Assembly (NCBI GenBank): GCA_950295325.1
Contig: OX485805.1
Span: forward strand, 13,689,501 to 13,753,500
Origin: Polytrichum commune
Taxonomy: Eukaryota; Streptophyta; Polytrichopsida; Polytrichales; Polytrichaceae
DNA: 64,000 nucleotides
Direction: 5' to 3'
Translations under genes and position numbers: made by a program
Shown here: one piece after another, positions 1 to 47,442 of the stretch
Layout: the number at the start of each line of letters is the position of its first letter
Position numbering within the stretch: position 1 is the first letter of the stretch
The notes under the pieces: model-generated
What the model was told of the DNA's origin: nothing
The model's input: the letters and a program-made list of their open reading frames with translations, nothing else
Database searches by the model: none

Positions 1-2245
1 TTTGCCCCTTGCCTCGCACCTCCTGGGATCCCCCTGAAATCAATTAGGGCAAATGGGCAACCCCTGCGGTCCTCCCTCACCTCGGCCCTGCTGATGGTGC
101 CGTCCCACTTAGAAAAAGTGGTCCTCTCCAGCCCGGTGGTTACCAAACAAAACCTGGCCACTCCCTCGAATGTGGCCCTCCGCTTCCTCTCCAAAAACTT
201 TATATACAACTCCACCTCCTGGGGATCTGTCTCTGCTTTCTTGGTCCGCTTGTTCCCCTTCAGCTTCAAGACGGAGGCGTGTTCCTTAACTAGCCTACGC
301 ATGGAAGAGCCGTTGATGTTATACCCGACCTTGAACTCCTTCCATCCAGCCTAGTTGATGTCCCCGTTGGCCTGGAAGAGTTTGTACTCCGGGACTAGTG
401 CGCCCAACTCCCTCATTGCGTTGGTCTTCAACTTGCGATGTTCGCACCACTCCTTGATGGAGTACGTTCCGGGCCTGTGCTTTGGCCTCTTCAAAAAAAT
501 CTTCGGGTAGGGGATTGTTCTCCCGACGGTGTTCCCAAGAGCATGAACTGCACATCTCTGCAATTCCGACTTCGTCAACCCCTGAAGCGGCCTAAAAAAT
601 TCCCTCAGCAGCGGAGGCGCTTCCCCAGTCTTCTCCTGATTATATTTTTCTTCAGTGTCGGGGTTGACGAGATCCCCCGCACTGTGAGCATCAAAAAATT
701 GGGTCCACAAATCCCAGGTGTCTCTGTTGCAACAAATAAGCCGGAGCTCACCCTTCAGCTCGAGCACTGACTTCGTTGAAGTGGACTTCATGTCGATGGA
801 AGAGAATTTGTCCACCATCGCATCGCAAAACGCCTGCATTAGAAAGGAATGTCATCGGTCAATCAAATACGAACGCACGTTCGTAAATAAAATGATCAGG
901 AATGTTCTAAAGGAACCTGAGAATTACGAACGCTCGTTCGTAAACTTACCTTCCATTGTGGATACTGGTTTTTCGCATTCTCCCTCTCCTTTGGTGGGCA
1001 CCCGTGTGCCACCCACACGTCTCTCGCAGCCACTATGTTTGCTGCCCATAATGCCTCAAACGCTTTGATCTTATTCCCAGAATTTAAAAATGTCGAAATT
1101 TTCCGGAGTTTGTTCCAGTCGTCTGACCACACCAGGAACGCCTTCCAGTAGCGCAGGTCCCCCTTCAGCTCATGCTGGAAGTTATCATCCTTGAGGATGA
1201 TCTGCGATGCCTCCAGGTTGTGCTGTCCATCAATAATCCAGAACTCCCCATTCTGGATTCTTGCCCAATCTTTCTCCGTGGGACGGGAAGTGAAACCCTT
1301 TGGCATAACGCACACAGTTTGCCTATCCCACTTCACGTTATTCATCAAGTTGTTGATTTGCCACTTCACACCTCCGCTTTCACGTGACCTCACCACCCAC
1401 TTGTTGGGGGATTTCTCGCATTTGAAGCAGTCCACGTTGAAGGTGAAGTGCCGTCCCATGGGCCAGCAATCCTTCGAGTAATTGTTGAAGTCGCGAAGGA
1501 TACGAGTCGCCTTTGCCGCATCAGGATTTTCCCCCTTCTTCAAAGGGGTCGGCATGACAGGCGGCGAGTTGACCTCAGCTGTCTCCGTGACACTAGACTT
1601 CTCCATATCGTCCCGAGTTCTTTTAGATGGCGTGGAGTGTCTGCTTGGCCCCTCTGACAATCTGCTAGCTGAAGGCACTGGCCGCGGCGCACTTCTAGAA
1701 CCTCCTGCTCCGGATGCAGTAGGTTTTTTGGGACTCTTCTTCTTCTTGTTGGCCTCCACGATGGCACTGTTATACTTGGACATATTTAGGGCCAGTGCAG
1801 TCAACTTCCTGGCTGTCCAATGCTGGCTGAGGCTGTACTTCGTGAAAAGGTTCACGAGGTCAAAATGCTTGGCATCCTCTACAACATTATTCTGTGCGTA
1901 TGTATGGGAGAAAGGGTGCCTCCTGAAGTCCAGTAGGAGGTTGATGTGGTCTTTTTTGTTTTTCAAATCCAAGATAACAAAATCACCCTGTGCCTCTATG
2001 GATTCTATCTCCCATGTCTTCATCTGCACCCACTGCTCCGGCTGGTCTGGCCTTGTCTCCAACTCGTATGTGAATCTCAGGGCGAACAATCCACCCTCGA
2101 TTTTCTCCGGGAGCGCCGTCCACTCCCCCATGAAGTCATCTTTGGGGACGTAATTATCGTTCCCATTGTCATCTGTCACTGACTCCGGAAGCCGATCCAA
2201 CTGAACCGCGAACATTTTGATTGCGCTCCTGACTGGTCTAGCCAT
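1..2245 (-). pseudogene. E1 accessory gene: DGQH-motif protein, 5' exons (cut by window edge)
   Basis: Exon A is 2245-950 and exon B is 833 to beyond base 1; the intron (949-834) has GT-AG ends and phase 0. The ATG at 2245 directly follows a TTGCAG acceptor, so a 5' non-coding or upstream exon is likely. Exon A encodes about 432 residues: an N-terminal region rich in aromatic residues, a basic low-complexity linker, then a block with IIDGQHNLEA followed by FLNSGNKIKAFEA. That arrangement resembles the DGQHR domain of DndB and the ParB/sulfiredoxin fold, although the usual Arg after DGQH is Asn here. Exon B matches exon B of E2 (LREFFRPLQGL, YPKIFLKRP) but has an in-frame TAG at 353-351 where the sequence otherwise stays open to the window edge. 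Two element-type palindromes sit inside the A/B intron. The biochemical role is unknown; DNA binding or partition-like activity is inference. Confidence 0.72.
868..945. repeat. E1 palindromes in accessory-gene intron A/B (2 sites)
   Basis: Two ACGAACGNNCGTTCGT-type palindromes, with centres CA and CT, occupy much of the 116-bp intron between exons A and B. The matching intron of E2 also contains two palindromes, but of the E2 type. Confidence 0.9.
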
Positions 2246-2276
2246 CTGCAATGTAACAGACACATTCAGAATTGCA

Positions 2277-2952
2277 TTTACGAACGCGCGTTCGTTACTG
2301 GCATTTGCAGGTCGTCAATAAATTATTTATTATTGGCAAGACATCTGTTGGTTCTTGTTTACGAACGTTCGTTCGCAAATTTGGTTTGATTTCCAAGGTG
2401 TTATTCATTTTCAATAAATACGAACGCGCGGTCGTATTTGAGTGCTGTGATGTTCATATGGCGTAATCAAAAGGTGTAGGGTTCGTTTTTATTTTCATTT
2501 TTTGGGCTCATTTTTATTAGTTTTTGGGTACACATATTTGTGTCCATGCCTTTGTGTAGATTTACGAACGCGCGTTCGCAAATCTTGGGTGTGTTTGGAT
2601 CCCTGGTTACGAACGATCGTTCGTAAATCTAGGATATTGATGTGATTCAGTGTTTGTTCACGAACGGACGTTCGCAAATACAAGATGTTCCTTATTTAAT
2701 CAATTACGAACGCACGTTCGGAAAATTAGAAGGTGAGTGGGTATTTTACGAACGCACGTTCGTAAAGGTGGAAAGTGAGTGGGTATTTTACGAACGCACG
2801 TTCGTAAAGGTAGAAGGTGAGTGGGTATTTTACGAACGTACGTTCGTAAAAGTAGAAGGTGAGTGCGTATTTTACGAACGTGCGTTCGTAAAAGTAAAGG
2901 GCTTGGTGTATTAGATGTATAAACGCCACATTTACGAACGATCGTTCGTAAA
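2277..2952. repeat. E1 palindrome cluster upstream of accessory gene (12 sites)
   Basis: Twelve copies of a palindrome with core ACGAACGNNCGTTCGT, usually extended to TTT...AAA, are spaced about 40-140 bp apart. The centre varies (CG, TT, AT, GA, CA, TA, TG) while the arms are nearly invariant; a few sites have one arm mismatch (for example 2419, 2561, 2705). The cluster lies just upstream of the accessory-gene ATG, probably in a 5' intron or promoter. Confidence 0.95.
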
Positions 2953-3451
2953 TGTGGTCGTCTGTGTATGATAATAAATGCTTTCCATACATATACGGAT
3001 ACGTATACATACGTATACATACGTATGGGTTTATGAATGTTGCTATCGACATTGCTTGGATTTCTGCCTGCAACTCTTGATCAGAATGATGAAACACAAA
3101 GTGAAATATGTAATGACAACAACATTGAGATTCAGTGATTAAGAATTCATAATGAAGGGGAAAGTCCTAATTCATACAAAACATGACAAAGCTCATAATG
3201 CATAAAACATGACACATGGAATTCAACAAAGAACAATTTCAGATTGCAAAGAAGTGTTTTGAAAAGGAAACCTGTACTCACATTGAATTGTTGCAAACCC
3301 AAAACCTGCTGCCTGCTACTCAGAAATCCAGAAACCTCACAAATGCACTGATTTCGCTTTCAAATGCAATTTCTACCCTCGCTCCTTTCTCACACTCTCA
3401 AGCCTTCAGAATTTATTTACAAATCCTACAAATATTCTGATGTAAACACAA

Positions 3452-3700
3452 CTCACAAGCTTTCTGAAACTCTCAAGCTCTCAAGCTTTTTGCAACACTC
3501 AACCTCTCAAGCTTTCTAAAACTCTCAAGCTTTCTAAAACACTCAACCTCTCAAGCTTTCTAAAACACTCAACCTCTCAAGCTTTCTAAAACTCTAAACC
3601 TCTCAAGCTTTCCAAAACTCTAAACCTCTCAAGCTTTCCAAAACTCTAAACCTCTCAAGCTTTCCAAAACTCTCAACCTTCTCAAGATTTCTACAAATAT
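3452..3700. repeat. Minisatellite, CTCAAGCTTTC-based units
   Basis: Irregular tandem units of roughly 24-26 bp built from CTCAAGCTTTCTAAAAC and CTCAACCT blocks repeat about nine times. No coding content. Confidence 0.8.
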
Positions 3701-3924
3701 CAACCTCTCAAGCGATCCTACTCTCAAGCTTCTGACAATGCGCGCCAAGAATAAACATAAAATGCGGCTATACAAATGGCCAGGGCTTCGCCGCATCTAA
3801 GCTCTCCCCTCCTCCTCTGCTCCAAATGACAAATGAGGAGGAGAGGAAGAGGCGCGGGGAGGTAGCCGGCACCGCTAGGGTTTCCTGGCGGCTGCCACGT
3901 GGCTGACAGCCACTGGCCAGGGCT

Positions 3925-4012
3925 GGGATGGGGGAGGGGATGGGGGAGGGGAGGGGATGGGGAGGGAATGGGGATGGGGATGGATGGGAGGGGAATGGGG
4001 ATAGGGAGGGAT
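3925..4012 (+). repeat. G-run-rich tract (possible G-quadruplex)
   Basis: Many runs of three to five G separated by A/AT occur on the plus strand, enough for G-quadruplex formation in principle. It lies upstream of the presumed minus-strand leader of the E1 accessory gene. Confidence 0.5.
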
Positions 4013-4266
4013 GAGGGTTTACGAATTAAGAAATACGAAATGGTGGGAGCTTAGTTCGGGGACATGAATTTTACATTCAGGGGATACGTATACATTCACT
4101 GAATATGTAAACATATTTTAGTGGGGGATACGTATACGTATTCAGGGGATATGTATGAATTTTACATTCGGGGACATGAATTTTACATATGGATTCCTTG
4201 TAAACATATTTTAGAAAAGTATGTTCAGTTAATTTGTACAACACAATGCATGTCATTTAGTAGGTT

Positions 4267-4478
4267 TTCGATGAAGAATCCACCCCAATGTGTGTATGGT
4301 GTTTTGCAAAATAGAGTTTTCATGAACCACACATCCTTAAAGTTGTTCAATGGTTCCTCAAACAAATTTTACATACATAAAGGACGCATTTTGAATTGTG
4401 GAGAGGGGCTATCAGATTCTCCTCAAGAGGTGGGGGAAAATTCATTTTTCAATACGATGTCATTAATTTCATGAGGTG
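4267..4478 (+). repeat. Diverged direct repeat, copy 1 (copy 2 at about 5375-5588)
   Basis: The two blocks share an ordered series of short matches (AATCCACCC, GTGTATATGGTGTTTT or a variant, GTTCAATGGTTCCT, GGTGG(G)GGAAA) over about 210 bp. They look like two old copies of one repeat. The ORF read across it has no recognisable domain. Confidence 0.55.
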
Positions 4479-5147
4479 TTAGCTTGACCCACCCTTAATA
4501 TGATATTTAGTATTAGATACTCTAAATACGAACGCATAGTACACTAAGGGCCTGTTTAGACTTGGGGCCAAGGCCATTGTGAACGAAGGCCAATATGTCC
4601 CATGTGGCATGCAAATGGGCCCCAAAGGCCATTAATAAGAAAGTAACCTAACTCCATTCATTGCTTTCATGTGTAAACCTATTTAGGTGGGGTTGGGGCC
4701 ATTTGGAGGTTGCAATTATGAGAGGGTTATGAGAGGTTCCAACGTACTCATGAACTATTCTATGGATAATAATTAAAGTATAATAAATTTAGAATTTCTC
4801 CCCTCCTACTCAATGCTCAAAGAATAAACTACTATAAGCGAATAAAAGCTCTAACAATGGCCTCAACAAGAGGGAAAGAGTCCACAATGTTGGGAGCTCT
4901 CTTTTCCAAGGCTTGAGGCCATTGTCATGATGAATAAAATAATTTATTTGTGATTGGCCCCAACTCATGGTGTAAACTTGAAGAGGAAAATCCTAGCCTT
5001 TCTACCAATGAGAGGCGTGGATTTCTTTCACCCCAACCCATTTTTGAGCCTTGACTCCAAGTCTAAACCCGTCCTAAGTATCACTAACGATCTAAACCCT
5101 AAGCCCGCAAACCACATATTAGACAACTTTCACAAACCATATACACT

Positions 5148-5192
5148 AACCCCAAACCCCAAACCCCAAACCCCAAACCCTAAACCCTAACC
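5148..5192 (-). repeat. Short telomere-like tract
   Basis: Consecutive CCCCAAA and CCCTAAA units on the plus strand resemble the plant telomere repeat, but there are only about six partly degenerate units. It is an interstitial tract, not a chromosome end. A similar short tract occurs at 21126-21160. Confidence 0.6.
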
Positions 5193-5374
5193 CTACATCT
5201 TTTTATCTTACCAACCCTTCTTAGGAGGTCAAGTCATTTAATTAGTTGTCGACTTGAACTAACAAACGAATACTAGTGCCATCAACTTTAAATTTCACCA
5301 ATGATCAATTGCATTTAAACTTGTAGTTCATAATATGGTCCGATGTTTGGCGAGCCTCAAGTGTAGGGGGTGGA

Positions 5375-5588
5375 TTCAAATGAAAAATCCACCCGCAAGC
5401 ATGTGTATATGGTGTTTTAAAATGTAATTTTTTCATGGACAATATGTCTTTCAAGGTGTTCAATGGTTCCTTAAAAAAAAATTATTGGATAAAAGACTCA
5501 ATTTCATATTGTGGCGAGCCTGCGCTATCCTAAACCTTTACAAAAGGTGGAGGAAATTCTATTTCTCATAGGACGTCAAACACATGAT
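5375..5588 (+). repeat. Diverged direct repeat, copy 2
   Basis: Partner of the block at 4267-4478, with the same order of short matching segments and many substitutions. No coding content seen. Confidence 0.5.
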
Positions 5589-6327
5589 ATTAATAATTGT
5601 AAGTGTGACTTCACGTAGGCATGGTTTCAATTCTTATCATTATCGTATGCACCGTTCCAAAGTGATTGATCATTTCCAATCATGCCATTTTAATTCATTA
5701 TTTTCAAACCTAGTGTTACATTTGAATGAAGACCTTACCTACATATATTGGGTATGATTACTTCAAAATGTCCTCAATTTACCTAGTACAAACCATTATG
5801 GATTAAGCGACTTTTTATTGGTATTCATGCAGTTGGTGACCATATTACGGGCATTTTTTTTATGTGAATCATATGATACCTACAATTTTAGGGGCTTCCA
5901 CAACATGTTTTTAGCTACTCTTACCTCATTGTGTGTGTGAATATATATTACCCTAAACCCTTCATCACTTTATTAGGTATAATCAATCGTCAATTAACTT
6001 GGACTTCACACCTTAGTTGCAAATCATTTAAATTCAATGTTAACCATAAGCCTATATAGACATTATAAATCTAATAATATATATAAAATATAAAATTCAT
6101 ATATACATATAAATATAGACATATATTCACGTGAGACCTTGGTGACAACTAAGGTGTGCGACCGATTGACATATTTACAATATGTTGCGTGCATGCAAGA
6201 CATGTTCCATACATAATGCTATTTATTTATTCCGCATGGATGGAATGGCATATTGTTAGGTCAAAGTAGGCGGCGGGAATCCGCTTTTTAAATAGCATCC
6301 AAGGGATTTTGAACCATCAGGGGGGAG

Positions 6328-6335
6328 GTACTTAA
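6328..6335 (+). promoter_or_regulatory. Candidate core promoter motif of E1 transposase gene
   Basis: GTACTTAA follows a G6 run and precedes a CCCCCC block. The same GTACTTAA occurs upstream of the E2 transposase (minus strand, 20513-20522) and upstream of the E2 accessory gene (24095-24107), each near a G6 or C6 run. A promoter role is inference. Confidence 0.25.
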
Positions 6336-6500
6336 AGCTCTTCCCCCCACATCAGAGCTCTTTTCTGCGGCACAACCAAGTGTGCGCTCCACAGACCTGA
6401 CTGGAACGAGCACAAACCATTTTCTTGTGCGCCCACCCTATACCTCCCAAATACACAATAGGTTGCACATACCCGCATATACCGCTGCAAATACCGGACT

Positions 6501-6522
6501 TTTACGAACGCACGTTCGTAAA
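6501..6522. repeat. E1 palindrome, single site
   Basis: A perfect-arm E1 palindrome with centre CA lies between the candidate promoter and the 158-bp tandem array. Confidence 0.9.
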
Positions 6523-6611
6523 GATGACTTGGTAGCGACATGTGATGCGAGTGGTTTAGACATGTAGTTTAGACGAGTGGTATAGACGAGTGGTTCAGAC
6601 ATGTGATGCGA

Positions 6612-7681
6612 GTGGTTTACGAACGTGCGTTCGTAAGTAGAGCATTAGACATACTCAACGTAGATTTACTTACAGCTAGTCATAGGCACAAAATGTTCAA
6701 TTATATACGAACGTGCGTTCGTATATATTTCCTTCCAAATACAGGCGCACGTAAGTTGTTGTGATGCGAGTGGTTTACGAACGTGCGTTCGTAAGTAGAG
6801 CATTAGACATACTCAACGTAGATTTACTTACAGCTAGTCATAGGCACAAAATGTTCAATTATATACGAATGTGCGTTCGTATATATTTCCTTCCAAATAC
6901 AGGCGCACGTAAGTTGTTGTGATGCGAGTGGTTTACGAACGTGCGTTCGTAAGTAGAGCATTAGACATACTCAGCGTAGATTTACTTACAGGTAGTCACA
7001 GGCACAAAATGTTCAATTATATACGAACGTGCGTTCGTATATATTTCCTTCCAGATACAGGTGCACGTAAGTTGTTGTGATGCGAGTGGTTTACGAACGT
7101 GCGTTCGTAAGTAGAGCATTAGACATACTCAACGTAGATTTACTTACAGGTAGTCATAGGCATGAAAATGTTCAATTATATACGAACGTGCGTTCGTATA
7201 TATTTCCTTCCAGATACAGGCGCACGTAAGTTGTTGTAATGCGAGTGGTTTACGAACGTGCGTTCGTAAGTAGAGCATTGGACATACTCAGCGTAGATTT
7301 ACTTACAGGTAGTCATAGGCACGAAAATGTTCAATTATATACGAACGTGCGTTCGTATATATTTCCTTCCAGATACAGGTGCACGTAAGTTGTTGTGATG
7401 CGAGTGGTTTACGAACGTGCGTTCGTAAGTAGAGCATTGGACATACTCAGCGTAGATTTACTTACAGGTAGTCATAGGCACGAAAATGTTCAATTATATA
7501 CGAACGTGCGTTCGTATATATTTTCTTGGAGATACAGGCGCATGTAAGTTCGTGTAATGCGAGTGGTTTACGAACGTGCGTTCGTAAGTAGAGCATTCGT
7601 TAATACTCCACGTTGACCTACTTATAGGTAGTCGTGGGCGCTAAAATGTTCAATGATATACGAACGTGCGTTCGTTTATTT
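6612..7681. repeat. Seven-copy 158-159-bp tandem array carrying 14 E1 palindromes
   Basis: Units start at 6612, 6770, 6928, 7086, 7245, 7404 and 7563. Each unit carries two ACGAACGTGCGTTCGT palindromes about 83 bp apart, one flanked by TT/AA and the other by TAT/ATA, so the flanks are also symmetric. The units are highly similar, with the last one more diverged, indicating recent amplification. Further single sites occur near 7757, 7951 and 8338. Confidence 0.95.
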
Positions 7682-8496
7682 TCCTCCGAACCCTCAAAGA
7701 CACCTACGCTCCCGTGACTCTGTTATGTCCAACTGAACATATGATGGTCTGGTATTCACGAACGTGCGTTCATAAATATCAATTGATATTATTTTGCAAT
7801 TATACAGAAACATCTGTTCATTTATGCACATGCCTCCTACTACTACGCTATAGATGTTTCTTCTGATGGGTCAACATTTTTACAAACACGGTTAGGGCTA
7901 GAACACATGATTGATCGTTCGTATGCATACGCCCATATGTTTCGGCCAGGACTTACGAACGATCGTTCGTATACATACACCCTTGAGTTTAGGCTCTACC
8001 TTGGGTTCGGTCGTTCCTAGATACACACCCGTCAAAGACATGCCCTTCAATTACGATGCTTGTTGCATGTGGATAATGATGCAGGTGCATTTTAGGTGCT
8101 CCTGAGCAATGCATGTTGCTTATCCCTTTTATAATTCATTGTTTGTTGGGTTGATGTTCTCGTCCGCGCGTTCGTGAATATATGTGCGTATGCTCTCCTT
8201 TGTTGGTTGGCAACACTTCCCATGTTTTATTAGCAAATCGACCCAAAACCCTTCACGGTTAATATGTACCACAATTGCATGCCGTTGTCCATTGGTGTGT
8301 GACTCCCACGTAGTATTTGCTTGTCATGGCGTTGTTTTCGAACGCACGTTCGTCTTCATATGTGAGGTCCCCCAACGGTGCCGCGAGAGTTGTTTGTGTT
8401 TTTTTAGCCATATATCTACACAGCTCTCGTTTTCGCTTTTGTGTGCATTGCGGTGCTTCTTGTTTTGGTCATTGATTAGTGGTTTGCTTAGGTTGG

Positions 8497-11400
8497 ATGG
8501 CGCTGCCCGTGGCATATAGTTCATTGGAGTTGTCCACAATTTCTTCCTCCTTCGATGGTGAGTGTGAACTTTCTTCCCCTTCGGCGGGTTGTAATGGTCT
8601 GCCAAACGTGATGGGGGAGTTTGTGGATACATCCTCCCATGAATCTTTAGAAGTGCACGAACAATCTCTACATTCCAGGGATGACCACGATGACATTCCG
8701 TTGTGTGCCGGTTTCGGGAGGGAGCAATGGGTTGGCCTTGATGTCGTCCTACTCAACGACATTGGTGTCCCTGTGGCAGATGGCATATGTAGAAACTCTG
8801 ATCCCCGTGATTGTGTGGATGCCAACCCCCTTGGTCCGAACGATGTTGGTGTGTGCATCTTGAATTCATTGCTTCCGCTTGAGGTCCCGGTGACATGGAG
8901 ATTTTCCTTGCGTCGATGGCTTTTTTGTCGGGTTCTCCATGACGGAGTGAGCTTGTTGGACCATGAGCGGCGCCATAAGCAAACACAATTAGCTTTGTTG
9001 GCCAAAATACGTCCTCGCAAAGGCCTACGCAAATATGATTCGAACCGTGTGCCTCGAGAAGATAAGGAGCGTCGACGGGATCGCATATTGGGAGACGAAT
9101 CTATCCGTCTTGTGTCCGCCAAAGACTGTTGCTATCGGAAATGTTGCCAGTTTTTCCCACGGGAGAAAATTAAGTCCCTACGTCAAGAGATGTGGCTGGC
9201 CGATTTCCGTATGAGATCGGCAAAGAAACTCGAGGTCCATAGAAATGTGCACATTGACACCCATGGGCATAAGGTGGTCACACTTGAGAATGTGGATGTG
9301 TGTTGTACCGCGTGGTATACCATCCATGCCGTGTCAAAGGCTGACTTTTATAGGTTTCAAAAGTATTCATCGTTGGGTCGCCGCTCACGATTTCATGGAA
9401 ATTCGGGCACAAAGAAACCTCGGGAGGCTACACTCCAAGCCTCCGCGACACTCTCCACCATCATAGTCCCATTGGCCGATGCAATGCCCCACAAGACGAG
9501 GACATTGTCGTCAGGGGAGAAAGTTGTACAAATGGTGTTGCCCACAGGTACAAAATGGAAGAACATATTAACGGACATTAACGAAGTGGGTCGCATAGCG
9601 GGATGTGGTCCCATTTCTTTGTCCAAGTTGAATGTAATTAAAAACCAACAGTTTGCTGAATACATTTTGAAGAGACCTGGGGACAAGTTCGCTAGGTGTA
9701 CGACGTGTGAAAAATACAAAGGTCTTCGAGACGCCCACCCCATAGGCACCGAATCCCACTCCAGACACCAAGCAAAATATATTGAACATGTCAACAACCA
9801 AGAGGCTCACCGTCAAGATTACTACAAGAACCGTGCTCTATCCATAATGAGGCCTACACAGGTTCTAACAATCATCCATGACAAAATGGACCATGCCAAG
9901 ACCGCATGCCCTTGTTATGCACGGAAAATAAAGGCCACGGATGGACTCTTCAAGTTGCCCGTAGCTGTCACAAGTTTGTAGGAAATCACAAATATGTGTT
10001 CAAATTCTATCCAATTTTACTAGATGTGTTTGCGTTAGGTTTCAACTTCACACATCCGTTTAGGGTTGTTGTTGTTATTGTTGTCATTCATGGATCGTTT
10101 GTTTTTTCCCAGGGATGATTGCCCACGGACATGGAGACGTTAAGTATGCCCATTATGGTCTGGATTTTTACCCTGGCGATGCTAACCACACGGTGGGATC
10201 ATTTGCAAAACTCTTGCACGATCTTGAGAAGCCACCGGTACATTCATCACGTGCATTGTTTGATGGTTGTGGAACGACACCCCTTTACGAAGCACTGCTT
10301 GCGGGGAAGGAGGTTTGTATGTCGTCATTGCCGGAGCCACCCGGAGAACCTCTTTGTGCGAAACCTTTGCCTCCAACTCTCCACGTTCAACTTGATAATT
10401 GTGCGAAGGACAACAAATGTCGATATGTATTTTGTTTTTGGTCCTTGCTTGTGGCGAAAGGAATCTTCAAGGAGGTGTTTGTGTCTTTCTTGATGGTGGG
10501 ACACACACACGATGACATTGATGTGTCTTTCGGACAGTGGAGCATGAAGTTGCATGAAGAAGATTTTCCAACCATACCACTTATGAAATCGTATATGGAT
10601 TTGGACCATATGCCGGTAATTCCGCACATGATTGAGGAAGTACCAGATTTCAAGGCCTTCATCAAGCCATACATGTTGAAGGGAGGGGACCGTTTGGTGG
10701 GACATACCAAAGCACAACAATTCCGATTCTTTATAAGGGATGATGGTCTCCCGGCCATGCAATTTAAGCTTTTGTGCACATCTCCTAATTGGGGCCCGGA
10801 TGATGGTATACTCGTATGGTGTCAAGACAATGATGGGAAATGTTTGCTCCCGGATGGGGATCCAAAGCCTTGCAAACCCGACCCCATGAGGAATGGGCCG
10901 GAAATCATCAAAGGCATATCCGGATTCATTGAATATTGGAAAGAGTTGTGTGAGGAGGACATCACTAGACGTGTTAGAGATACTCATGAACCTTTGATTG
11001 CGTATTGGGATTGCATTCGCTCGGCCCTAATGACACTTGGTGGCGACACCCGTACAACTTTAACACAAGGATTTTGGCCACAAAGCCGTTTAACGGTTGT
11101 CGAGTCCGACACCATGTTTTTTAGCAATAGAGACGTTCGTGAAGAGTTCGCAATGGACGAGCATTACGTTGGCCCTGCCCGAGATCGACCGGCACCGTCG
11201 TTTCGTGTAGGTGTTGATTGCCATGAAGGTTATTTGGTCCTCGTACGAGCAGGGGATGAAGAGTGTGAGGCCAAAACCCCCACCCTTAAGCGTCCGTAGT
11301 CCGAGTAGTGGGTTTGGGCTCACATTCCTCCGCGGTATTGGATTTGGACTTGGATGAGTCCATAGTGCAAGGTTCACCCTTCAAGTGGTCTTGGTTTTAA

Positions 11401-13550: not shown

Positions 13551-13941
13551 ACATAACATATTAGGTGGGAGTTAATGGTGAAAAACATGGGCGCTTAGTA
13601 GACTTGGTTTTTATTAGACTTAGTGGACTTGTCACACTCCATTGTTGTATACGTTTGGGATGTGCCATCCAAATTCATAAGAGCCTTACTTATGGGATGC
13701 GCACCCCAAATTCTATAATGACATAAACCAATTGTTTTTTCAGAGTTGATTGTTATTTTCCACAAAGAGCTCACGTTTTCATTTTAATTGAAATTATCTA
13801 TTTTTAGTAATAAGAATATGCTTTACGTGCGAAATTTCAAATCGTCATGTTCTTGATGTTCCCAATATTCCGTATGCCCACAATATTGGCATCCCAAACC
13901 ATGGGCATATTTTATTTTGAGACTTTCAAAAGTCTCCGATT

Positions 13942-13956
13942 AACGAATATAGTGTT
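13942..13956. repeat. Right terminal inverted repeat of E1
   Basis: AACGAATATAGTGTT is the reverse complement of the E2/E3 left end AACACTATATTCGTT. Just inside it, GAGACTTT and AAAGTCTC form a hairpin, as on the transposase side of E2. Confidence 0.9.
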
Positions 13957-15668: not shown

Positions 15669-15713
15669 AACACTATATTCGTTATTTGGAGACTTTGGAA
15701 AGTCTCAAAATAA
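15669..15713. repeat. E2 left TIR with subterminal hairpin (transposase side)
   Basis: AACACTATATTCGTTATTTG is followed by GAGACTTTGGAAAGTCTC, an 8-bp-stem hairpin. The same hairpin form occurs at the transposase end of E1 and, weaker, of E3. Confidence 0.9.
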
Positions 15714-30257: not shown

Positions 30258-30285
30258 GTAATCAACCTTTGAGCATGCCTCCCTC

Positions 30286-30307: not shown

Positions 30308-30602
30308 TTCCCAGTCAGCCAGCTTTCGTGGCGTGTGCATATTTTCGAGTTCGAATCTCGACTTCGCCCGCGGCGGCGGATCCAATTTTGCTAGTGTAGG
30401 CTCAATTAATCTTAGGAGAGACCTTTAGTGACAATGTAAATTATTCGCGAAATGTATATCACCAAACACATTAATACAATTTTTTGAACTGCATAGTTCT
30501 TCGGATACTTGTTGCCTCGCATTTCTTTGTTGCGTTTTTGCATGCTTGTCATTTGGTTTTCCTGGGTAGTGCCATTCACCTAGGTAGTATGTGTCATCAC
30601 AG

Positions 30603-31370: not shown

Positions 31371-31463
31371 GAACTTTGATACTTTTTGGCTCCGTACTTG
31401 GACTCTCCATGTTTATATCTAACATTTCTCTCCTTATTTTGTAAATGTATTTTTGTGCCTTAG

Positions 31464-32335: not shown

Positions 32336-32369
32336 CGCCTATTCATGGTCCAAATGTATAGGCTATATT

Positions 32370-32669
32370 AAAATACATATAGATGTGGATTTGTGTTTCT
32401 AGGGCTTTGGCCTAATAGTGGATATTCCACTTGCATTTTGTATTTTGACCCTCTTCAATGAATATGATATCCATTTCCTATATGCAAATGTTGTAATTGT
32501 CCCATTTCCCTATTTTTATATGTGTAATTACATGCATTTGAGTTTCATATTTGTTTCCATATTGGGAACATAGCATATTTGTAGTGTATTCATTCCTATA
32601 AATGTGAAAGCCACGTCCTTAAATAGTCTCAAAATTAACAAAAAGTCTCCAAATAACGAATATAGTGTT
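32370..32669. repeat. E2 right end and TIR (accessory side)
   Basis: The terminal 28 bp match the left TIR inverted. Just inside lie two GAGAC blocks in direct orientation when read inward (GAGACTTTTT then ATTTTGAGAC), unlike the hairpin at the other end; E3 has the same arrangement on its accessory side. Confidence 0.85.
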
Positions 32670-32878
32670 CTTTGCGAAAACGGGTTGAGAGTGAACTAGA
32701 GTCGATTAATTTCTTGTTCACCGAGTGCCTGGAAGATTACTCGGTGCGGTCGGAGACAGAAGATGTAGCCGAAAGTGATGATTTTGATCGCTGGAGTTCG
32801 TCGACTAGCAGTGTGGATGGTCCTGACTATCTGTTTATGAGAAGTGACTATCCTAAGAGAAGGAATTTTGCTTTCTAG
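32670..32878 (+). pseudogene. Antisense F-box-like ORF of copia A, 3' part
   Basis: This is a continuation of the ORF at 15261 after the E2 insertion. Translation shows ESINFLFTECLEDYSV, which aligns with the ISVLLSESLEDFAL block of the copia B ORF. The C-terminus is acidic and Ser-rich and ends at 32878, just next to the end of pol on the other strand. Confidence 0.55.
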
Positions 32879-38800: not shown

Positions 38801-40107
38801 TCGACATGTCCGACACCAGTAACATTGTGATTCTGTCCTCCCGCAATTTGAACACGGGCTCCACTAGTTGGACGAAATTCTGTGAACATTGAGGAGTCTC
38901 CTGACACGTGATGCGTGGCTCCGGAATCTAGGTACCAAGGACTTGCTGTTTGAGACGTTTCTAGTGCATTTAGCTCAACTAAGCAAGCATCAACGATTTG
39001 TCCTGCCGTTTCGAAATTTTCAGAGTCTTGGTTGAATACCTCAGCTGGATCTTCCAGATGATGAATCTGGCCGTTTAGAGTTCGATCGCGTCGCTCTAGC
39101 AATCGTTGCTCATAATCCTTTATGCGATCCAGTATGGATCTCAAATCACACTCACGTTCAAAGTGTCCGTTAAGGCCGCAAAAATTACATCTGTCGCCTC
39201 TCTGCCTGTCAGGTTCCTTCGATCTGTATCAATTTTGAGGGACTGTTGATGATCTTCCTTGCTGTGCGGCTCCAGAGTGTGTTGCGGCGGCAGTGTGCTG
39301 GGAGTATCTTGTAGCGGCGGTGTGATGAGGGTATTTCGGCGTTGTCATTCCTCTCGATTCGTTGTGTCTCCTATTGTTGTAGTGGTGTCTAGGGTTCGAT
39401 GAAGAGTGTCCGAATCTGGGTGGAAACTGTGGCCTCCTCGTTTTGTCTTGATGGAGAAAGAGGGCTTCGCCTTCTTCTTTCTGTTGGGTCTCCATTCTGA
39501 TTGCAGTTTCTTCAGAAATTAACTTGGCCTCAAGATGCTCATATGTTGGCAATGTCTGGGCCGCGATCTGCATCCTTTTAAATATCTCATACTCCTTAGG
39601 CAGATTTTTGAGAGTATAATAAACAATGATATCCTCAGGAATGACAACTTCTACTTCCTCTAATTGGTTAGCGACTTCCTTGACTTCTGTAAGGTGTGAG
39701 TCCATAGAGATAGAGTCAGTTTTTCTCAAAGCAAAGAACTTATCAATAAGCATTACTCTGCGAGGACCACTATCAGATTCGTATATGGTTTTGAGTCCTG
39801 TCCAACACTCATGTGGATCAGTGTAGCGTCGCAGTAGCTTAAGAACGTTGTTTTTGGCGTTGCTATTGATGATACTCATCACCTGCTGCCGCGCCATCCT
39901 TTCTTCTCCCATGACCTTACTCGGTGCCGTGAGACAGTATCGAAATCGCCCATCCTTCAGCAGCAGGTTCTTCATTCGAAAGGACCATACTCCGAAGTTG
40001 GCTGCTCCCTCCAGGTGATAGATTTGGGGGAGACCGTTGTCGCTTGCCATGGTTGCCTGTTGAGTCTGTAAACTGCTTGCCGAATCTTCTTCTTCTATGG
40101 TCGACAT
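32875..40107 (-). pseudogene. Copia A gag-pol polyprotein, interrupted
   Basis: One reading frame runs from ATG at 40107 through gag (UBN2-type, about 290 aa), a CCHC zinc knuckle, protease (WYLDSGATHHVSG), GAG-pre-integrase and integrase, then reverse transcriptase (YVDDILLTG) and RNase H (SCESEYRALAQ, YCDNQST), ending at 32875. Lesions seen: TGA at 39231-39229 between gag and the zinc knuckle, a solo LTR at 35391-38260 inside integrase, and TAG at 35109-35107 (HLxGEAV). From 35106 to 32875 the frame is open. Order INT-RT-RH identifies Ty1/copia. Confidence 0.88.
35391..38260. mobile_element. Solo LTR, family 2 (2.87 kb) in copia A integrase
   Basis: The block begins TGTGGTACTT and ends GGGTTCACA, and is flanked by perfect 5-bp copies TAGTC (35386-35390 and 38261-38265). 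The integrase frame resumes exactly across it. No gag or pol is seen inside, so it is most likely a solo LTR. Its ends resemble family 1 (TGTG...CACA) but the body differs. The small ORFs within have no recognisable domains. Confidence 0.82.
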
Positions 40108-40146
40108 GAAGAGTGATCTAGGGTCTGCTCATCTCTCCTTGAACCC

Positions 40147-40158: not shown

Positions 40159-40737
40159 TGTTGAAGCGGAAGTAGAACTCACTACTTCGGAACGAATCAG
40201 TTCATAACACTATATTCGTTAAATTGAGACTTTCTCTAGTCTCAAATTAATATATGGATCAAAGAACTTGAAGAGGCCCGAAACTATATTGTCAACAATC
40301 TCAAATATATTATATGTTCTAATATCCCAAATCTATGATGTGCGGACATAAGCACATATGGTAGAGCACTCGACACCAACTTCATCAACAAAAACACATT
40401 GGGTAGAGCACTTCAAACAAGTTTCACCCAAAAATATATATAAAATGATTTCTATTATTAGCATGTTCAATAGAATATAGACATTGCAACATACAAAGTG
40501 CATGTAATAAATGCATGTTTCTTCATTTGAGAATATAGTCCCAAGCATAATAATAAGATGAACTTCAATTGCAGCTTGAAATATAGTAAATGGATATTCA
40601 TCCAACTCCAAACAATATAGTATTCGTAAGTTCTACCCAAACTCTGCCCCAATTTTGAAGAGCACACATATGTGTAATTTATATTGCTATAATTACGTAT
40701 TAAACTATAATCATGCTAACACAATCCTACCAACTTC

Positions 40738-43700
40738 TCATTCAACGTGGGTTGCTTCTTCTGCAATCCGAGCAAGGTTGTCTTTTGCAAAAGTTATGTA
40801 CTTTTGAGGGATGGACACTGATCCACTATGGTGTTTCCGTGGTTTCCATGCTATGAATATGGAATCTGTATCTACCCAAGATGGACCGTGCTCAGAATCC
40901 ACCTTCCACCGAAAGTTAGGGTTTGTATCCCAGCCTGTATAATGCCGAATCACATCTTCATTCCTTGCTGTCGGTCGATAGTACTCCACTTGTATTTGTC
41001 GAAAATGAGGGCTGGAAGTTACAAAATTGGGTTTGGACAAAGCTCTTGCCACCCACACTGGCTTCGCATATGTCTCGTCTCCAGGACGCAAAATGAGCAT
41101 ATAACCTTCATGACAATCCACTGCAATGCGGAAAGATGGTGGGGGACGACTACTAGCAGGCCCCACGTAATGGTCGTCCACATCAAACTCCTCTCGAACC
41201 TCTCCATTTCCCAAAAGACTAGGCTCTGAAGCTTGTACATCGACTCGTGTTTGTGGCCAAAATCCATGCCTCAAAGTATGAGGGCTATCTTGGTGGAGGT
41301 CTGCCAAGGCGGCACGAACACGTGTCCAATAATGTATCCAACTCCCATAACGATGCCAACATGATCCGCCAACATCCGCTATTTTCAAACTCTCCCAATA
41401 TTGTATGAAGCCTGATATACCTTTCAAAATATCCTCCAAATTCTTCATGGCTATTGGCTTACAAGGCCTAGGCTCCCCATCCGGTAACATGGTCTTTCCA
41501 TCCGCATCCACGCGCCACACAAGAAGACCCTCCGGCGGGCTCCAGTCTTGTGACGTGCACAACAACTTGTATTGCATGGCCGGGACACCATCGTCACGCA
41601 TATAGAAGCGGAATTGTTGTGCCTTCGTATGCCCGATCAATCGGTGAGCTCCACTTCGAATATAAGGTTCTATAAATGCCTTGAAGTCTGGCACCTCCTC
41701 AATCATATGGGGGATGACGGGAACGTTCTCCAAATCCATGTACGACTTCATCAATAATGGAATTGTAGGGAAATCCTCCTCCCGCAACTTCATGCTCCAC
41801 CGCCCAAAAGATGCATCAATATCATCGTGCGTGTGGCCTACCAATAGGAAGGACACAAAAACCTCCTTGAAAATGCCTTTCACAACCAACAACGACCAAT
41901 ATGCAAATACATATCTGCTTTTATTGTCCTTGGCACAATTGTCCAATTGGACACGCAAAGTTGGAGGCAACTTCTTGGCAATCACGGGTTCATTGGGTGG
42001 CTCGGGCAACGAATGCAAGCATACATCTTTTCCATCCAACACCGTTTCATATAAAGGTGTTGAACCCGTGTTCTCAAATAACAGTCCTGAAGAATAGGCT
42101 GGTGGTTTCTCTAAATCACGTAAAAGCCTTGCAAATGATCCTATCGTGTGGTTTGAATCCGCTGGATACAAATCAAGAGCATAATGAGCAAATTTGACAT
42201 CACCGTGTCCATGTGCAATCATTCCTGCAATGCCAACCCAACGTGATTAGCATCTATGTATGAATAAACCATTATGAAGGAATCCATGTTCTCCAGTACA
42301 TCACGGAATAAAATACAACAACATTTAGGGTATGTCATGACATTGTTTCGAAGTTCACCTGTAACCGATACAGACAACTTGAAAAACCCATCCGTGGCCT
42401 TGATTCGATTTGCAAAACATGGGGAGGCTGTTTTGGCATGGTCCATTTTGTCATGGATGACCGTAAGAACCTCCAAGGGCCTGGAGATGGACAAAGCTCT
42501 ATTTGTGTAGTAATCATTACGGTGTGCCTCTTGCATGTTTACGTGCTTGAAATAGTTCAATTGATGCGCTGCATATGACTCGGTGCCCATCGTGTGTGCA
42601 TCCCGGAGGCGCTTCAACTTCTCGCAATTAGAGCACCTGGCAAATTTGTCCCCTCGTCTTTTTGTAATGTATTCGCTAAAGTTTTGTTTCTTGATTGCAC
42701 TCAATTTTGACAATGAAATTGGCTCCAACCCAATCTTCTCGCCAACTGCATTAACGTCCAACAATATGTCTTTCCATTTTGTGCCTGTGGGAAGAACTTT
42801 CTCCACAACCTTTTCACCGGTTGTGAGTGTGCGTGTTTTGTGCGGCATTGCATCGGCAAGAGGGACAATGATGGTTGCTAGAGTGGCCGTTGCTTGCCTT
42901 GTTGCTTCCCTAGGCTTCTTTAAACCCACGTTACCATGGTGACGGGACCGGCGGCCTTCCTTGGCATAAGCAGCTTGTCTATAAAAGTCCGATTTCGACA
43001 CACCGTGAATGGTGTACCATGCCTTACAACACACGTCTATGCTTTCAATGGTGATGACCTTGCGACCCGTCCCATTCACATGTATCGCCCTATGGACATC
43101 AAGTTTTCTTGTGGATCTTAGACGGAAATCTCCAAGCCACATTTCTTCGCGGATGACCTTCAATTTATCCCTTGGAAACAATTGGCAACAACGATGCACA
43201 CAACAATCCTTTGTGGCAACTTCTCTAATGGACTCCTCCCCGAGCAACCTTTGACGTTTACAATCAGTTGCAGACGGAGCAGGACGTGCCAATGTATCGT
43301 ACTTTCTTTGACCCTTGCGCGGCCGCATGTTTGATTGCACCTCCTTTTCGATTTGCATGTGTCGTTGCTCATGTTCACGCAAGCTAACTCCATCAATTGT
43401 GACATTCCTCAATGGCCACCTGTGGAGGGAGAACCTATGAGTGGGATCCACCTCGGAATGAACGACCGACTCCAATATGACAACCCCAACGTCCTCAGTG
43501 CCAAGCAGGTTTTCATCAATGCAATCTTGCGGATGGGTGTTACGGCAAATCCCCTCCGCCACAACAACTCCACTATCGTTAAGAAGTATCACCTCCAAAT
43601 TCACCCACGAAGCCCTTGAAAGTCCCGTACATTCAACAATGGGACACTGCGGTACGGAAGACGAAGGTAAATCCAAATGATCTTCATCCGCACTGTCAGC

Positions 43701-43802
43701 CATAGTAGCCTCCCCGACAATGTCTAGGTCATCATCAGATGCAGATGGCCAAGTGGCCATGTCATCAGATGACCAATCCCCTATTTCACTAAACCCATCC
43801 AT
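40738..43802 (-). CDS. E3 DUF7869-like putative transposase (intact)
   Basis: Exon 1 is 43802-42359 and exon 2 is 42224-40738, with a GT-AG intron at the same codon as in E1 and E2. The sum is 977 codons with no internal stop, giving about 976 aa. The ATG at 43802 (MDGFSEIGD) is chosen over an upstream in-frame start because the other copies also begin with a short acidic leader. Domains: acidic N-terminus; Cys-rich segment (KDCCVHRCC, IDVCC) resembling the N-terminal zinc region of DUF7869 proteins; CSNCEKLK; then DKMDHAKT, QLDNCAKDNK and VGHTHDDID as probable acidic catalytic blocks of an RNase H fold; and a C-terminal region ending in a conserved AWKPRK...IPQK segment. It is the only copy here that could make full-length protein. 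DDE function is inferred. Confidence 0.88.
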
Positions 43803-44015
43803 TCTGCCTACACACATGAACATTGAACATTGTCTTAAAATCACAAAAATTGTAGGTTCAAATCGAAGAACAAAAAAACCATCATATATAAACAAAATTG
43901 CAAATACTCAGTGCTCATACAAGTTCATATGACTGCTATGCCATTGGGCTTGTAAAGGTTTCGGAAGGCCAGTGGCCACACCGGCACCCAGATCCCAACC
44001 ACACTTAGAGGCTGG

Positions 44016-44840
44016 GTTTGGGTCGAGCGACCCAAACCTTTTGGGAGGATGGGTTCAGGCTCAATACAGAGAGCACCCACACTTAGGCGCTGGATTTGGG
44101 TCGAGCGACCCAAACCTTCTGGCAGGATGGGTTTAGGCTCACTACAGACAGCATCCACACTTAGGGGCTGGGTTTGGGTCGAGCGACCCAAACCTTTTGG
44201 CAGAATGGGTTTTGGGTCACGACAGGGAGCACCCACACTTAGAGGGCTGGGTTTGGGTCGAGCGACCCAAACCTTTTTGCAGGATGGGTTCAGGCTCACA
44301 ACAGTGAGCACCCACAGTGTAGGGCTAGGTTTGGGTCGATCGACCCAAACCATGAGGCAGGATGGGTTCAGGCTCACAACAGTGAGCACCCACACTGTAG
44401 GGCTGGGTTTGGGTCGATCGACCCAAACCTTGAGGCAGGATGGGTTCAGGCTCACAACAGTGAGCACCCACACTATAGGGCTGGGTTTGGGTCGATCGAC
44501 CCAAACCATGAGGCAGGATGGGTTCAGGCTCACAACAGAGAGCACCCACACTGTAAGGCTGGGTTTGGGTCGACCGACCCAAACCATGAGGCAGGATGGG
44601 TTCAAGTTCAGAACAGTGAGCACCCACACTGTAGGGCTGGGTTTGGGTCGATCGACCCAAACCATGAGGCAGGATGGGTTCAGGCTCACAACAGAGAGCA
44701 CCCACACTGTAGGGCTGGGTTTGGGTCGATCGACCCAAACCATGAGGCAGGATGGGTTCAGGCTCACAACAGAGAGCACCCACACTGTAGGGCTGGGTTT
44801 GGGGGGGTGTAGGGATGGGTTTGGGTTTGGGTCGATCGAA
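44016..44840. repeat. E3 78-bp tandem array carrying palindromes (10 full sites)
   Basis: Each unit of about 78 bp contains one palindrome with core GGGTCGNNCGACCC flanked by TTT/AAA and a spacer with ATGGGTTCAGGCTCACAAC and CCCACACTG. Centres are AG in the first four units, then AT, with one AC. Because 78 is divisible by three, long frames stay open on both strands; these are artefacts. The array abuts the truncated accessory gene, the last half-site merging into it. Confidence 0.95.
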
Positions 44841-45743
44841 GAAGCTCATCGTGGACGGAGAGGTCGACGAGGCGCACTGGAGGGCCTTCAAAGCCGAATA
44901 TAAGTTTACCAGTGCGTCCATGGCGGCACTCATGAGGGAGGCGGGAGACGACTTCCTCAGATCCAAGCTCGTGAAGGGGGGGAGGAACCGGGCGCTTCCC
45001 GAACACTCAGTGCGGGCCTTCTCCAACTTCATAAAGGAGAAGAAGATCGTCAGTTTCGAAGGCGATGCGCAATTCAACATGGTCACTGTCGAACCTCTCA
45101 GGATCCAGGGTTGGCCGGGTTCTGAGTCAAGGAAGGCGATCAGGACTAGAGCCGGGGACCGCTTCCCCTTCGGAATGATAGACTTCAGGAACATCCCTGG
45201 AGCCTCATTCGAGGGGACTATGAGCACCCCTTTTTACGATCCTTTCTTGTCGAAGTTCGTGGACTACGCCACCCCAAATTCAGGGAGGTCGACGTCTGGC
45301 TCTGGATTGTCGAGGACAGAAGGGCAGAGCAGGTTTACGAGATCGTGCGCAAATTGCAGCCAGAGTATGCCGTCTCGAAATCTCACTACGTTGCTGCACC
45401 AGCGGAGGGGGCGTACAGCACGCTGAAAGACAAGAAGACGAAGATCGTCAACGTGCTGTGTTTGTACTTCGTGTACAAAGCTGAGCTGCTTAAGGTGCCA
45501 AACCATCCCATAGCCAGGATGGAAAAGCTCTTCCAAGTCCAAGAAGGGTTGGGTACCAGCAGGAGCTTATATGACGAGGCGAAGTACGCCAACTACCCCG
45601 CGGATGAGCTGCGCATGGAGTTCTACCTGCGGATGATGAGGACCCTCACGAAGAGAGGGGACTGCATCTTCAACGTTTTCGGGGGGTCCAAACCGATTTT
45701 TGCAGCCATGGTAAGCAGAAAACCCAGAAGTCCCTATACGTTC

Positions 45744-45839
45744 GGTTTGGGTCGAACGACCCAAACTAGGGGCATGCACAGTTTGGGTCGAGCGACCCAA
45801 ACTAGGGCCATGCATAGTTTGGGTCGAGCGACCCAAACT
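45744..45839. repeat. E3 palindromes in accessory intron B/C (3 sites)
   Basis: Three GGGTCGNNCGACCC palindromes (centres AA, AG, AG) about 37 bp apart occupy the intron that in E2 carries four E2-type sites. Confidence 0.95.
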
Positions 45840-47047
45840 AACTATTCTTATTTTGTTTGGAAGTCATTTTCCATTATATGTTCATTTGGTGTTACTAATA
45901 GTATTGATTTTGATTGTGCAGATGTCTGGGTTGAACATCTACTCCTATGTAGAGGATGCCGATGTTCAATTCTACAGGACCCAAAAGGCGCTGGCCAAGA
46001 GAATGGACATCCTCGACTGGATACCCGGATCCTACGTCGAAGAGATCGTCGAGGGGGGCGAGAATCCTTTGGATATTGCGAGGCGAATCAACCCGGGTGA
46101 ATTCGCCATGCGGGCCCCCGTTCAATTGCCAGAGCCGCTCATCGGGTTGCATCCGGGCAATCCGTCTATGGGAGCAGGTGGCAGGGTTGGGGAGGAGGGG
46201 GAGGAAGACGAGGAGGAGGCGGAGGAGGAAGCAGAGAAAGTGGAGGGGGAGGTGGAGGAAGGGGCAACAGGATTCACTCAAGAATCCGAGGCCCCTCAGC
46301 GGAAGAAGGCCATGCGGCCTGCCACGCCGCAGAGCAGGCTGGTGCCCGCATTGACGGTGGACGACGCCAAGGATATGTACTCGAGGGACGCGACGGCCAC
46401 CTTCAGGGAGCGTAGAAGGATGAAGGGGAAGAAGCTGTACGGGGACTATGCGGTGGAGGAGACGATCGCAATAAGCTCCGAGGACGAGGACGACATGGAA
46501 CTCGCCAAGAAGCTGAGGTCTGATCCTGCCTCCCCCAGAGCGTTCGCCGGGAATGTGAGGGTGAAACCGGAGGTCCTCACCGTGGAGGAGGCGAACGCAA
46601 AAATGCTCCGAGACGGGGAGCAGCGTGTGCGACTGCAGAGGGCTGCCGCCGAGGAACCCTCTGTCCGCAACGAAGTCGCGGAGTTGAGGGCTCTCCTGTT
46701 GGAGCAGGAGCGGCAAAGGGCGATGTCCCAAACTCCGTCCCAAGCGGACCTCATCACGCAAGTGATCCAGGGCATGCTGGCGCAGGGATTGGTGATGGCT
46801 CCCCCGAGTTCATTCCCTCACTTGCCCGCAGGCTTCCCTCCACAGGATATCCGCCCGCGGCCGGCGTTGGAGCATTCCTTCAGCTTCGCGGATTTGCTGC
46901 AGCCGCACGCCCGTCCTTACGCGCCTGTGCAGCAGGTGGATGATCCAAACCTTTGGCGCGTCCCCGGAGCGTCCAGCTCGTTGGCACCCCCCCGCTCCGG
47001 CCTCCCATCCTCTTGCCCCCACACCACCAGCGGGACGACCCCCACAT

Positions 47048-47138
47048 GTTTGGGTCGTCCGACCCAAACAGTGCCGACGTTGCAGCGTCGCAGAGCGACC
47101 CTCGCCAAGCAGCAGGGTTTGGGTCGGCCGACCCAAAC
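47048..47138. repeat. Two E3 palindromes inside coding exon C
   Basis: Perfect sites at 47048-47069 (centre TC) and 47117-47138 (centre GC) lie in the Pro-rich tail, encoding FGSSDPN and FGSADPN in the frame that leads to the conserved donor. E2 has one palindrome in the same tail. Confidence 0.9.
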
Positions 47139-47420
47139 CCCGTCCCCCATCAGACCCCGGTCGACGAGCCTATGCTAGATGTTGAAGGCCCGCAAGGGCC
47201 TGGTGATACCTCTACTCCTAACCCAGTCGATGAACCAATGCATGATGCGCATGCGGAGGTTGGGTTGGGACAAAGGCCTGACAGTCAGCCTTTGCAGGAG
47301 CAGGTTGCGGCTGACGGCGTCGTCGGAGGCGGCGGTGACAGAGGTGGGGCAGCGCACGCGATGCCGGCATCAACGTCGTCAAGGCACGACCAAGGCGAGG
47401 TAATGCACTGACCCCACTCA

Positions 47421-47442
47421 GTTTGGGTCGGCCGACCCAAAC
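47421..47442. repeat. E3 palindrome just after exon C donor
   Basis: A perfect E3 site (centre GC) lies 22 bp after the exon C end at 47399; the equivalent E2 site is 29 bp after its donor. Confidence 0.93.

Follow-up and report, generated by a model that had tools for sequence, protein, structure and literature searches.

Palindrome arrays with element-specific arms in DUF7869-encoding DNA transposons of Polytrichum commune

TnpA of the maize En/Spm transposon is a transposon-encoded protein that recognizes a repeated, private 12-bp subterminal motif in a methylation-sensitive manner and acts on its own promoter; the subterminal sites serve transposition. In the ParB-parS system of bacteria, a palindromic site is bound by a dimer. 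The VANDAL transposons are Mutator-like elements (MULEs), and their VANC proteins carry a conserved Pfam domain, DUF1985. In Arabidopsis, the protein encoded by the transposable element binds arrays of motifs that are particular to that element and lie outside coding sequence, among them C-type and T-type variants that differ by one base (PMC5735166), and both binding and demethylation by VANC have been established by experiment (PMC5735166; PMC10398659). Here we describe dispersed 22-bp palindromes in three related DNA transposons with terminal inverted repeats (TIRs), E1, E2 and E3, which lie in a 64,000-nucleotide stretch of the Polytrichum commune genome (assembly GCA_950295325.1, contig OX485805.1, positions 13,689,501 to 13,753,500; hereafter the window, from whose first letter all coordinates are counted).

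Palindromes with two 10-bp arms around a 2-bp centre and at most one arm mismatch occur 72 times in the window, whereas 30 dinucleotide shuffles gave 2.2 on average and never more than 5, and control palindromes with odd spacings of 1-7 bp number 2, 6, 9 and 12. Where exact 8-base half-sites face each other within 40 bp, the spacing is 2 bp in 22/22 pairs in E1, 13/13 in E2 and 16/18 in E3 (51/53 in total). When sites were typed as 20-mers with at most two arm mismatches in all, the resulting 70 sites all fell inside the elements, with none between or outside them in the window, and 69 carried the arm of their own element: ACGAACG on both sides (A/A) in 28/28 sites of E1, ACGGACG (G/G) in 25/26 sites of E2 and GGGTCG in 16/16 sites of E3. 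The exception in E2 is a single A/G hybrid. These counts bear out an earlier, sequence-only reading of the window, which had proposed element-specific palindromes of fixed symmetric architecture dispersed in three related transposons. It had placed the system at 868-47442; the elements themselves reach further, with E2 at 15669-32669, E3 at 40206-52002 and E1 running from beyond the left edge of the window to 13956.

E2 measures 17,001 bp, and its ends were set from four further copies. All five copies (5/5) have the 28-bp TIR starting AACACTATATTCGTTA and their own 4-bp target site duplication (TSD), which is cttt in the window and attg, ttag, taag or ctgg elsewhere. The E2 DUF7869 gene (16315-19416, minus strand) matches Pfam PF25273 with an E-value of 1.5e-40 and 139.3 bits against a cut-off of 26, so that E2 has the TIR, TSD and coding content of a DUF7869-encoding DNA transposon. 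A second gene, here called R, appears from splice sites read in the sequence to consist of three coding exons on the plus strand: exon 1 (25809-27098), with a DGQH motif, exon 2 (27277-28596), an open frame, and exon 3 (28869-30272), whose long charged helix is a possible coiled coil. It is followed by a NIF/FCP1-like phosphatase gene (30651-31367, plus strand; Pfam PF03031, E 1.9e-13). Nine of the ACGGACG sites lie upstream of the DUF7869 gene (19471-20273), with an extra one at 17942. Ten lie upstream of R (25135-25762; nine G/G and the A/G hybrid), partly in a 53-bp tandem array, two in R intron 1 (27118-27211), two in R intron 2 (28711-28778), one inside R exon 3 (30175-30194) and one just 3' of the exon 3 frame (30287-30306). 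The E2 sites thus appear to be placed at promoters and introns, more than 2 kb from the TIRs.

E1 (1-13956) ends in a right TIR copy at 13941-13956, a 16-mer with 0 mismatches. Thirteen of its ACGAACG sites (867-2951) are on the R side, in R intron 1 (867 and 924) and upstream of R (2278-2951), whose exon 1, also with the DGQH motif, is at 953-2245 on the minus strand. Fifteen more (6502-7972), partly in a 159-bp tandem array, adjoin the gene for DUF7869, a putative transposase (8476-11263, plus strand). E3 (TSD tcat) has a DUF7869 gene (40738-43907, minus strand) whose exons are 59% and 74% identical to those of E2, an R remnant (44836-47178, plus strand) in which exon 1 is missing and pieces of exon 2 are read in two frames (44740-45720) while exon 3 is present, and a phosphatase gene (49677-50501, plus strand; PF03031, E 3.9e-15). 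Ten GGGTCG sites form a 78-bp tandem array at 44017-44739, and six more (45746, 45782, 45818, 47049, 47118 and 47422) fall within 45746-47441. A relative of E3 (L043) has R exon 1 and palindrome arrays on both gene sides. The TIR core is common to E1, E2 and E3, as are DUF7869 and R, and the phosphatase is found in E2 and E3, the corresponding region of E1 lying beyond the window.

The anatomy can be set against the described systems. VANDAL21/VANC21 and VANC6 likewise have short motifs peculiar to each element, repeated in tandem both upstream and within introns (PMC5735166; PMC10398659), and element-specific motif arrays in non-coding regions are what we find here. Related families there have different motifs, with one-base variants and rapid change of both motif and accompanying protein, as here. 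However, the VANDAL motif is a 9-mer (an 8-mer for VANC6) in one orientation, whereas the site in P. commune is a strict palindrome with a 2-bp spacer. It belongs to a DUF7869/TIR transposon with a 4-bp TSD, is known from sequence, and is accompanied by an R protein without a VANC domain in Pfam: none was found in R exon 1 with E up to 10 in 10 family members, nor in E2 R exons 2 and 3 with E up to 1. A Pfam scan of the element proteins gave DUF7869 and NIF only, with no match to a MULE transposase. We regard VANDAL/VANC as a precedent that the palindrome system resembles, while transposon, protein and palindromic site look unrelated. The sequence-only reading had known of no described plant transposon with such a system, and in this it overlooked VANDAL/VANC of Arabidopsis (PMC5735166).

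A repeated private motif is shared with En/Spm TnpA, and a transposon-encoded protein, sensitivity to methylation and action on its own promoter would be further parallels, but here the sites are internal, at genes, and the TIR starts AACACTATA rather than CACTA. Clustering near both TIRs, as for TnpA, is absent, the E2 sites closest to the element ends being 2,273 and 2,363 bp away (17942 versus 15669; 30306 versus 32669). With ParB-parS the system shares a palindromic site, and the DGQH string of R resembles the ParB/DGQHR loop. A relationship of R to ParB is not supported: hhalign gave 0.2% probability, with a shallow ParB profile of 3 rows and 49 columns, and the one match to a PHROG ParB (E 0.099) is not significant, leaving a likeness at the level of the motif. 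A literature search under the name DUF7869 found no paper, and in what could be consulted of the literature on moss transposons and similar subjects we found no comparable transposon-palindrome system.

Beyond the window, we analyzed the one genome (408 Mb in 64 contigs; the listed matches fall on contigs C1-C7) by counting exact 22-mers, with a reversed-pattern control that gave 0 for each. TTTACGAACG-NN (A/A) occurs 2909 times, TTTACGGACG-NN (G/G) 1147 times and the GGGTCG type of E3, GTTTGGGTCG-NN, 9231 times. A/G hybrids number just 43 (17+26), and C or T at the variable base of the A/G arm was not found in any exact 22-mer. For CCCACGGGYG-NN there are 853 occurrences with T type, C type and hybrids pooled, and T/C hybrids make up 2 of the first 50 places. 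The first 50 places of the G type all (50/50) fall in 7 clusters, 5 of which coincide with listed R genes; for the A type, two of the places listed have their closest listed neighbour 10-18 kb away. With the genome lists clustered and none of the typed window sites outside an element, the palindromes do not show the scatter that would have spoken against the sequence-only reading. Elements of the E1-E3 type are abundant: the E3 DUF7869 exon has at least 85 genome matches at 97-100% identity (itself included), R exon 1 of E2 has 90 listed matches, of which at least 20 are full or nearly full at 95-100%, and all 150 of the 150 scored matches to the PF25273 model are above its cut-off.

To these we added 33 loci around R exon 1 (L010-L042), fetched by protein similarity to E1 or E2. 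A scan blind to the arm sequence found an array in 33/33, with 6-14 sites each. In a tree of R exon 1 built by a quick method (37 rows), the 13 A rows and the 22 G rows are each set apart by a branch (SH-aLRT 99 and 100), and arm type follows element phylogeny, a check that the sequence-only reading had proposed. The A/G split in this tree is a single switch, hence an association and not replication. The 12 fetched relatives with E1-type R exon 1 have the identical arm type, and the 12 A-clade loci are pure, with A/A in 135/135 sites. The 21 G-clade loci have 200 sites, 163 of them G/G, 17 A/A and 20 A/G. The 17 A/A sites come one per locus, from the 17/17 ACGGACG-type loci that do not belong to the E2 family, where the final site ahead of R is classed as A/A (5 perfect, 12 near-A with 1-2 mismatches); E2-family copies have a G-type site at that position. 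Because an A/A site persists there, A may be the older arm type, with one site left behind in the G clade; this is suggestive and not proof. Two parts of the sequence-only reading need adjustment here. The one-base symmetric change between E1 and E2 extends to most sites and not to all, and arm types are unmixed in E1 and the A-type loci, with a minority of hybrids and one conserved A position in the G-type loci.

A third part concerns the two central bases, said to vary freely. They do in E1 and E3. G-type sites have mostly CG (148/197, with CA/TG in 43/197), CCACGGGTG sites have AA/TT in 33/33 in the fetched loci, AT also being seen in the genome list, and GGTGAGGCA sites have TA or CA/TG in 62/62; the copies behind these counts are not independent. 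L019 and L022 have a 135-bp repeat (at about 580-1140) that holds, in alternation with the G-type site, another palindrome, CCAAATATT-GT-AATATTAGG.

Replication of the private-site pattern comes from families other than the A/G pair. Among 14 regions upstream of DUF7869 genes, chosen via the Pfam model (L045-L058), 12 have arrays: CCACGGGTG in L045, L046 and L048, CCACGGGCG in L047, GGTGRGGCA in L050 and L051, the GGGTCG type in L052 and ACGAACG in L053-L057. The CCACGGGTG element is about 25 kb long with the same gene set, and its palindrome is present at the R promoter side, in the R introns, in R exon 3 and in the phosphatase region. The exon 3 frame contains a palindrome both in E2 and in the CCACGGGTG element (L065, reverse strand 4967), each of its own type. 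L067, an 86% relative of CCACGGGTG R, has ten CCACGGGTG sites. Five deeper R relatives were then taken from 23 listed matches (23-26% identity to CCACGGGTG R) regardless of palindromes, and three of them have arrays with new arms: TTCCACTCG in L069 (6 sites), TTTCACTCG in L070 (7 sites) and TTCCTCTCG in L068. The 23 listed matches cover only the DGQH half of CCACGGGTG-type R, most with long open frames, and those remaining probably represent more families with private palindromes.

The arrays of the R side and the DUF7869 side agree in type in 6/6 elements with both sides read: E1, E2, E3 (through L043), the CCACGGGTG element (L045/L065, about 12 kb apart), the CCACGGGCG element (L047/L066) and the GGTGAGGCA element (L051/L061), membership of a single element being inferred from layout and not from TIRs in the last two. 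L066, about 12 kb from the L047 array, has 12 pure CCACGGGCG sites and one hybrid. R intron 1 has a site of its own type in 4/4 arm types examined (E1, E2, L043 and L065). No array was found between the two genes in L059 and L060, and L062, mostly beyond its element, has one site, the R gene of the CCACGGGTG element being found further left. An E3-like upstream region (L044) without palindromes was left uncounted; since it has no match to the window or L043, we take this copy to be cut by other DNA. In all, we find nine arm types of one shared architecture with 2-bp spacing, eight well supported and one weak. Pairs that differ by one symmetric base are clear for ACGAACG/ACGGACG, CCACGGGTG/CCACGGGCG and TTCCACTCG/TTTCACTCG, and weaker for TTCCTCTCG/TTCCACTCG.

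We consider it somewhat probable that the palindromes are private sites of a symmetric-dimer protein from the same transposon family, which promotes expression of the element's own genes, likely by anti-silencing. The strict 2-bp spacing would most naturally be explained by a symmetric dimer, as both arms and the spacing are fixed and uniform across unrelated flanks, with one monomer per 9-10-bp arm. The agreement of distant arrays, and the change of type between families at corresponding positions, for example in R intron 1, argue for a protein that is family-specific and so probably encoded by the element. Binding at promoters and introns would keep the element genes expressed, most likely by countering host silencing and possibly with autoregulation; such an activating or anti-silencing, VANC-like role is suggested by where the arrays lie, in non-coding parts of genes that belong to the element itself, and by motif variants that differ in a single base. 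Protein and sites would change together, giving each family its own 'key', and the arm would change by small symmetric steps, each reaching nearly every site within an element. Since some sites extend into perfect palindromes with arms of up to 27 bp, such steps may originate in template-switch copying from one arm onto the other. Simple autoregulation is nearly as good a fit to the anatomy as anti-silencing. Only tentatively, and short of calling it probable, do we propose a superfamily-wide lock-and-key system, in which the transposon superfamily would have radiated within this one genome into nine or more families, every one with a private palindrome and a matching dimeric anti-silencing or activator protein. 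It would have arisen independently of VANC and would diversify by one-base symmetric steps that sweep nearly all sites. If true, families would be isolated from each other's regulator.

There is a limited but appreciable chance that the sites instead belong to an element regulator that autoregulates transcription and/or aids transposition, like maize TnpA, with no special anti-silencing, and the binder may then be the DUF7869 protein. The arrays upstream of DUF7869 in 12/14 loci from further families agree with this, as does the presence of a DUF7869 gene with an adjoining array in all six elements for which both sides were available. The E2 sites, at more than 2.2 kb from either TIR, are unlike subterminal transposase sites, however, and many sites are at R and in R introns. 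Between E1 and E2, R is 44% (exon 1), 58% and 47% identical, as compared with 78% and 84% for the DUF7869 exons. We favor the R product as the best candidate binder because it diverges faster than DUF7869 and its long charged exon 3 helix could dimerize. A likeness of R exon 2 to DNA methyltransferases in one short motif found no supporting matches and is not claimed.

Several results weigh against our preferred reading of a private, element-encoded dimer. A change of one base in the arm stands against a divergence of about 56% in R, so R and arm are not tightly coupled, and the DUF7869 protein could be the binder. Searches of R in Pfam, NCBIfam, PHROGs and PDB gave no significant match and no recognized DNA-binding domain, and AlphaFold models of R were unusable, with a mean pLDDT of 31.8 for exon 1 (2 window rows) and 42.9 for exon 2 (5 window rows). 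Purity is not absolute, as 17/21 G-type loci have an A or near-A site and a tenth of their sites (20/200) are hybrids. Two of the 14 DUF7869 loci have no array (in L049 there is a single CCACGGGCG site, and in L058 no site of this sort), nor do two of the five deep R loci (none in L071, one site in L072), and in L068 three of the four sites are hybrid, TTCCTCTCG being mixed with TTCCTCGCG half-sites. Most arm types contain CpGs, but the GGTGAGGCA arm does not, and methylation sensing therefore cannot be general.

It is improbable that each family captured sites of a host transcription factor as enhancers. Promoter and intron positions are where enhancers act, yet nine arm types would demand many host factors, arrays within an element agree in arm type, which tracks the phylogeny of the elements, and 0/70 typed sites in the window lie outside elements.

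Conservation of the arms was assessed across 33 rows (31 loci and two window rows), which form ten groups of closely similar copies, over gap-free columns at positions 701-1600 of the oriented R loci, without L039 and L042, which have no close partner. A site was counted if at least one copy matched, and decayed sites may be missed. Variable CpG columns are 89/656 in arms and 70/257 in flanks (p 2.5e-6), and variable non-CpG columns are 44/818 and 685/6098 (p 5e-8); at matched CpG status, arms vary about half as much as flanks. It counts further against our reading that the effect is small without the CpG split (133/1474 versus 755/6355, p 0.0016) and that columns, copies and tandem units are not independent. 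The difference between arm and centre variability is not significant (p 0.07).

These comparisons bear on a possibility we judge slight, that the palindromes have no function and simply result from tandem duplication and from template-switch repair acting on quasi-palindromes. Many sites are indeed in tandem arrays with periods of 36-159 bp, and some are embedded in longer perfect palindromes with arms up to 27 bp (window 25201 and 28759; L024 1349; L020 923), as though one flank were a copy of its partner, by which symmetric changes may arise more easily. Isolated sites with unrelated flanks, in introns and the coding exon, nevertheless carry the same arm, the arms are conserved relative to flanks, and the spacing is the same in nine arm types. 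Least probable of all, and very much so, is a role as RNA hairpins in the transcripts of the elements, with the variable centre as a loop: palindromes do occur in introns, a coding exon and possibly 5' leaders, but the arm sequence is fixed across unrelated flanks, changes within the groups are 3 symmetric double against 93 one-sided, and CpG positions of singly changed sites show no G.U bias (C>T 22, G>A 19 on the R-sense strand). From that ratio of double to one-sided changes, the symmetric switch would be a between-family event.

One genome with recently multiplied elements thus offers several naturally occurring combinations of a site with its candidate protein, one base per arm apart, and allows a direct test of how a DNA-binding protein and dozens of sites shift specificity together. 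The system bears on whether sequence-specific means of evading silencing have evolved repeatedly in transposons, and if R binds the sites, it could be a source of highly specific palindrome-binding modules.

Some further features of the window were noted. In the window copy of E2, an in-frame stop at 17049-17050 splits DUF7869 exon 2 (304-aa frame), which is a 549-aa frame in many other copies. The E1 DUF7869 gene is interrupted after 11263 by a stretch of about 1.9 kb (11264-13181), an inverted match to E3 47949-49732 with main pieces at 95-100%, and the matching E3 stretch extends to the start of the phosphatase frame; either E3-type DNA has come to lie within E1, or both elements share one insert. 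Outside the three elements, minus-strand frames at 32875-40128 and 54182-58265 resemble Copia-type retrotransposons in their open reading frames, and the translation of an open frame at 61505-62047 resembles part of a plant cytochrome P450.

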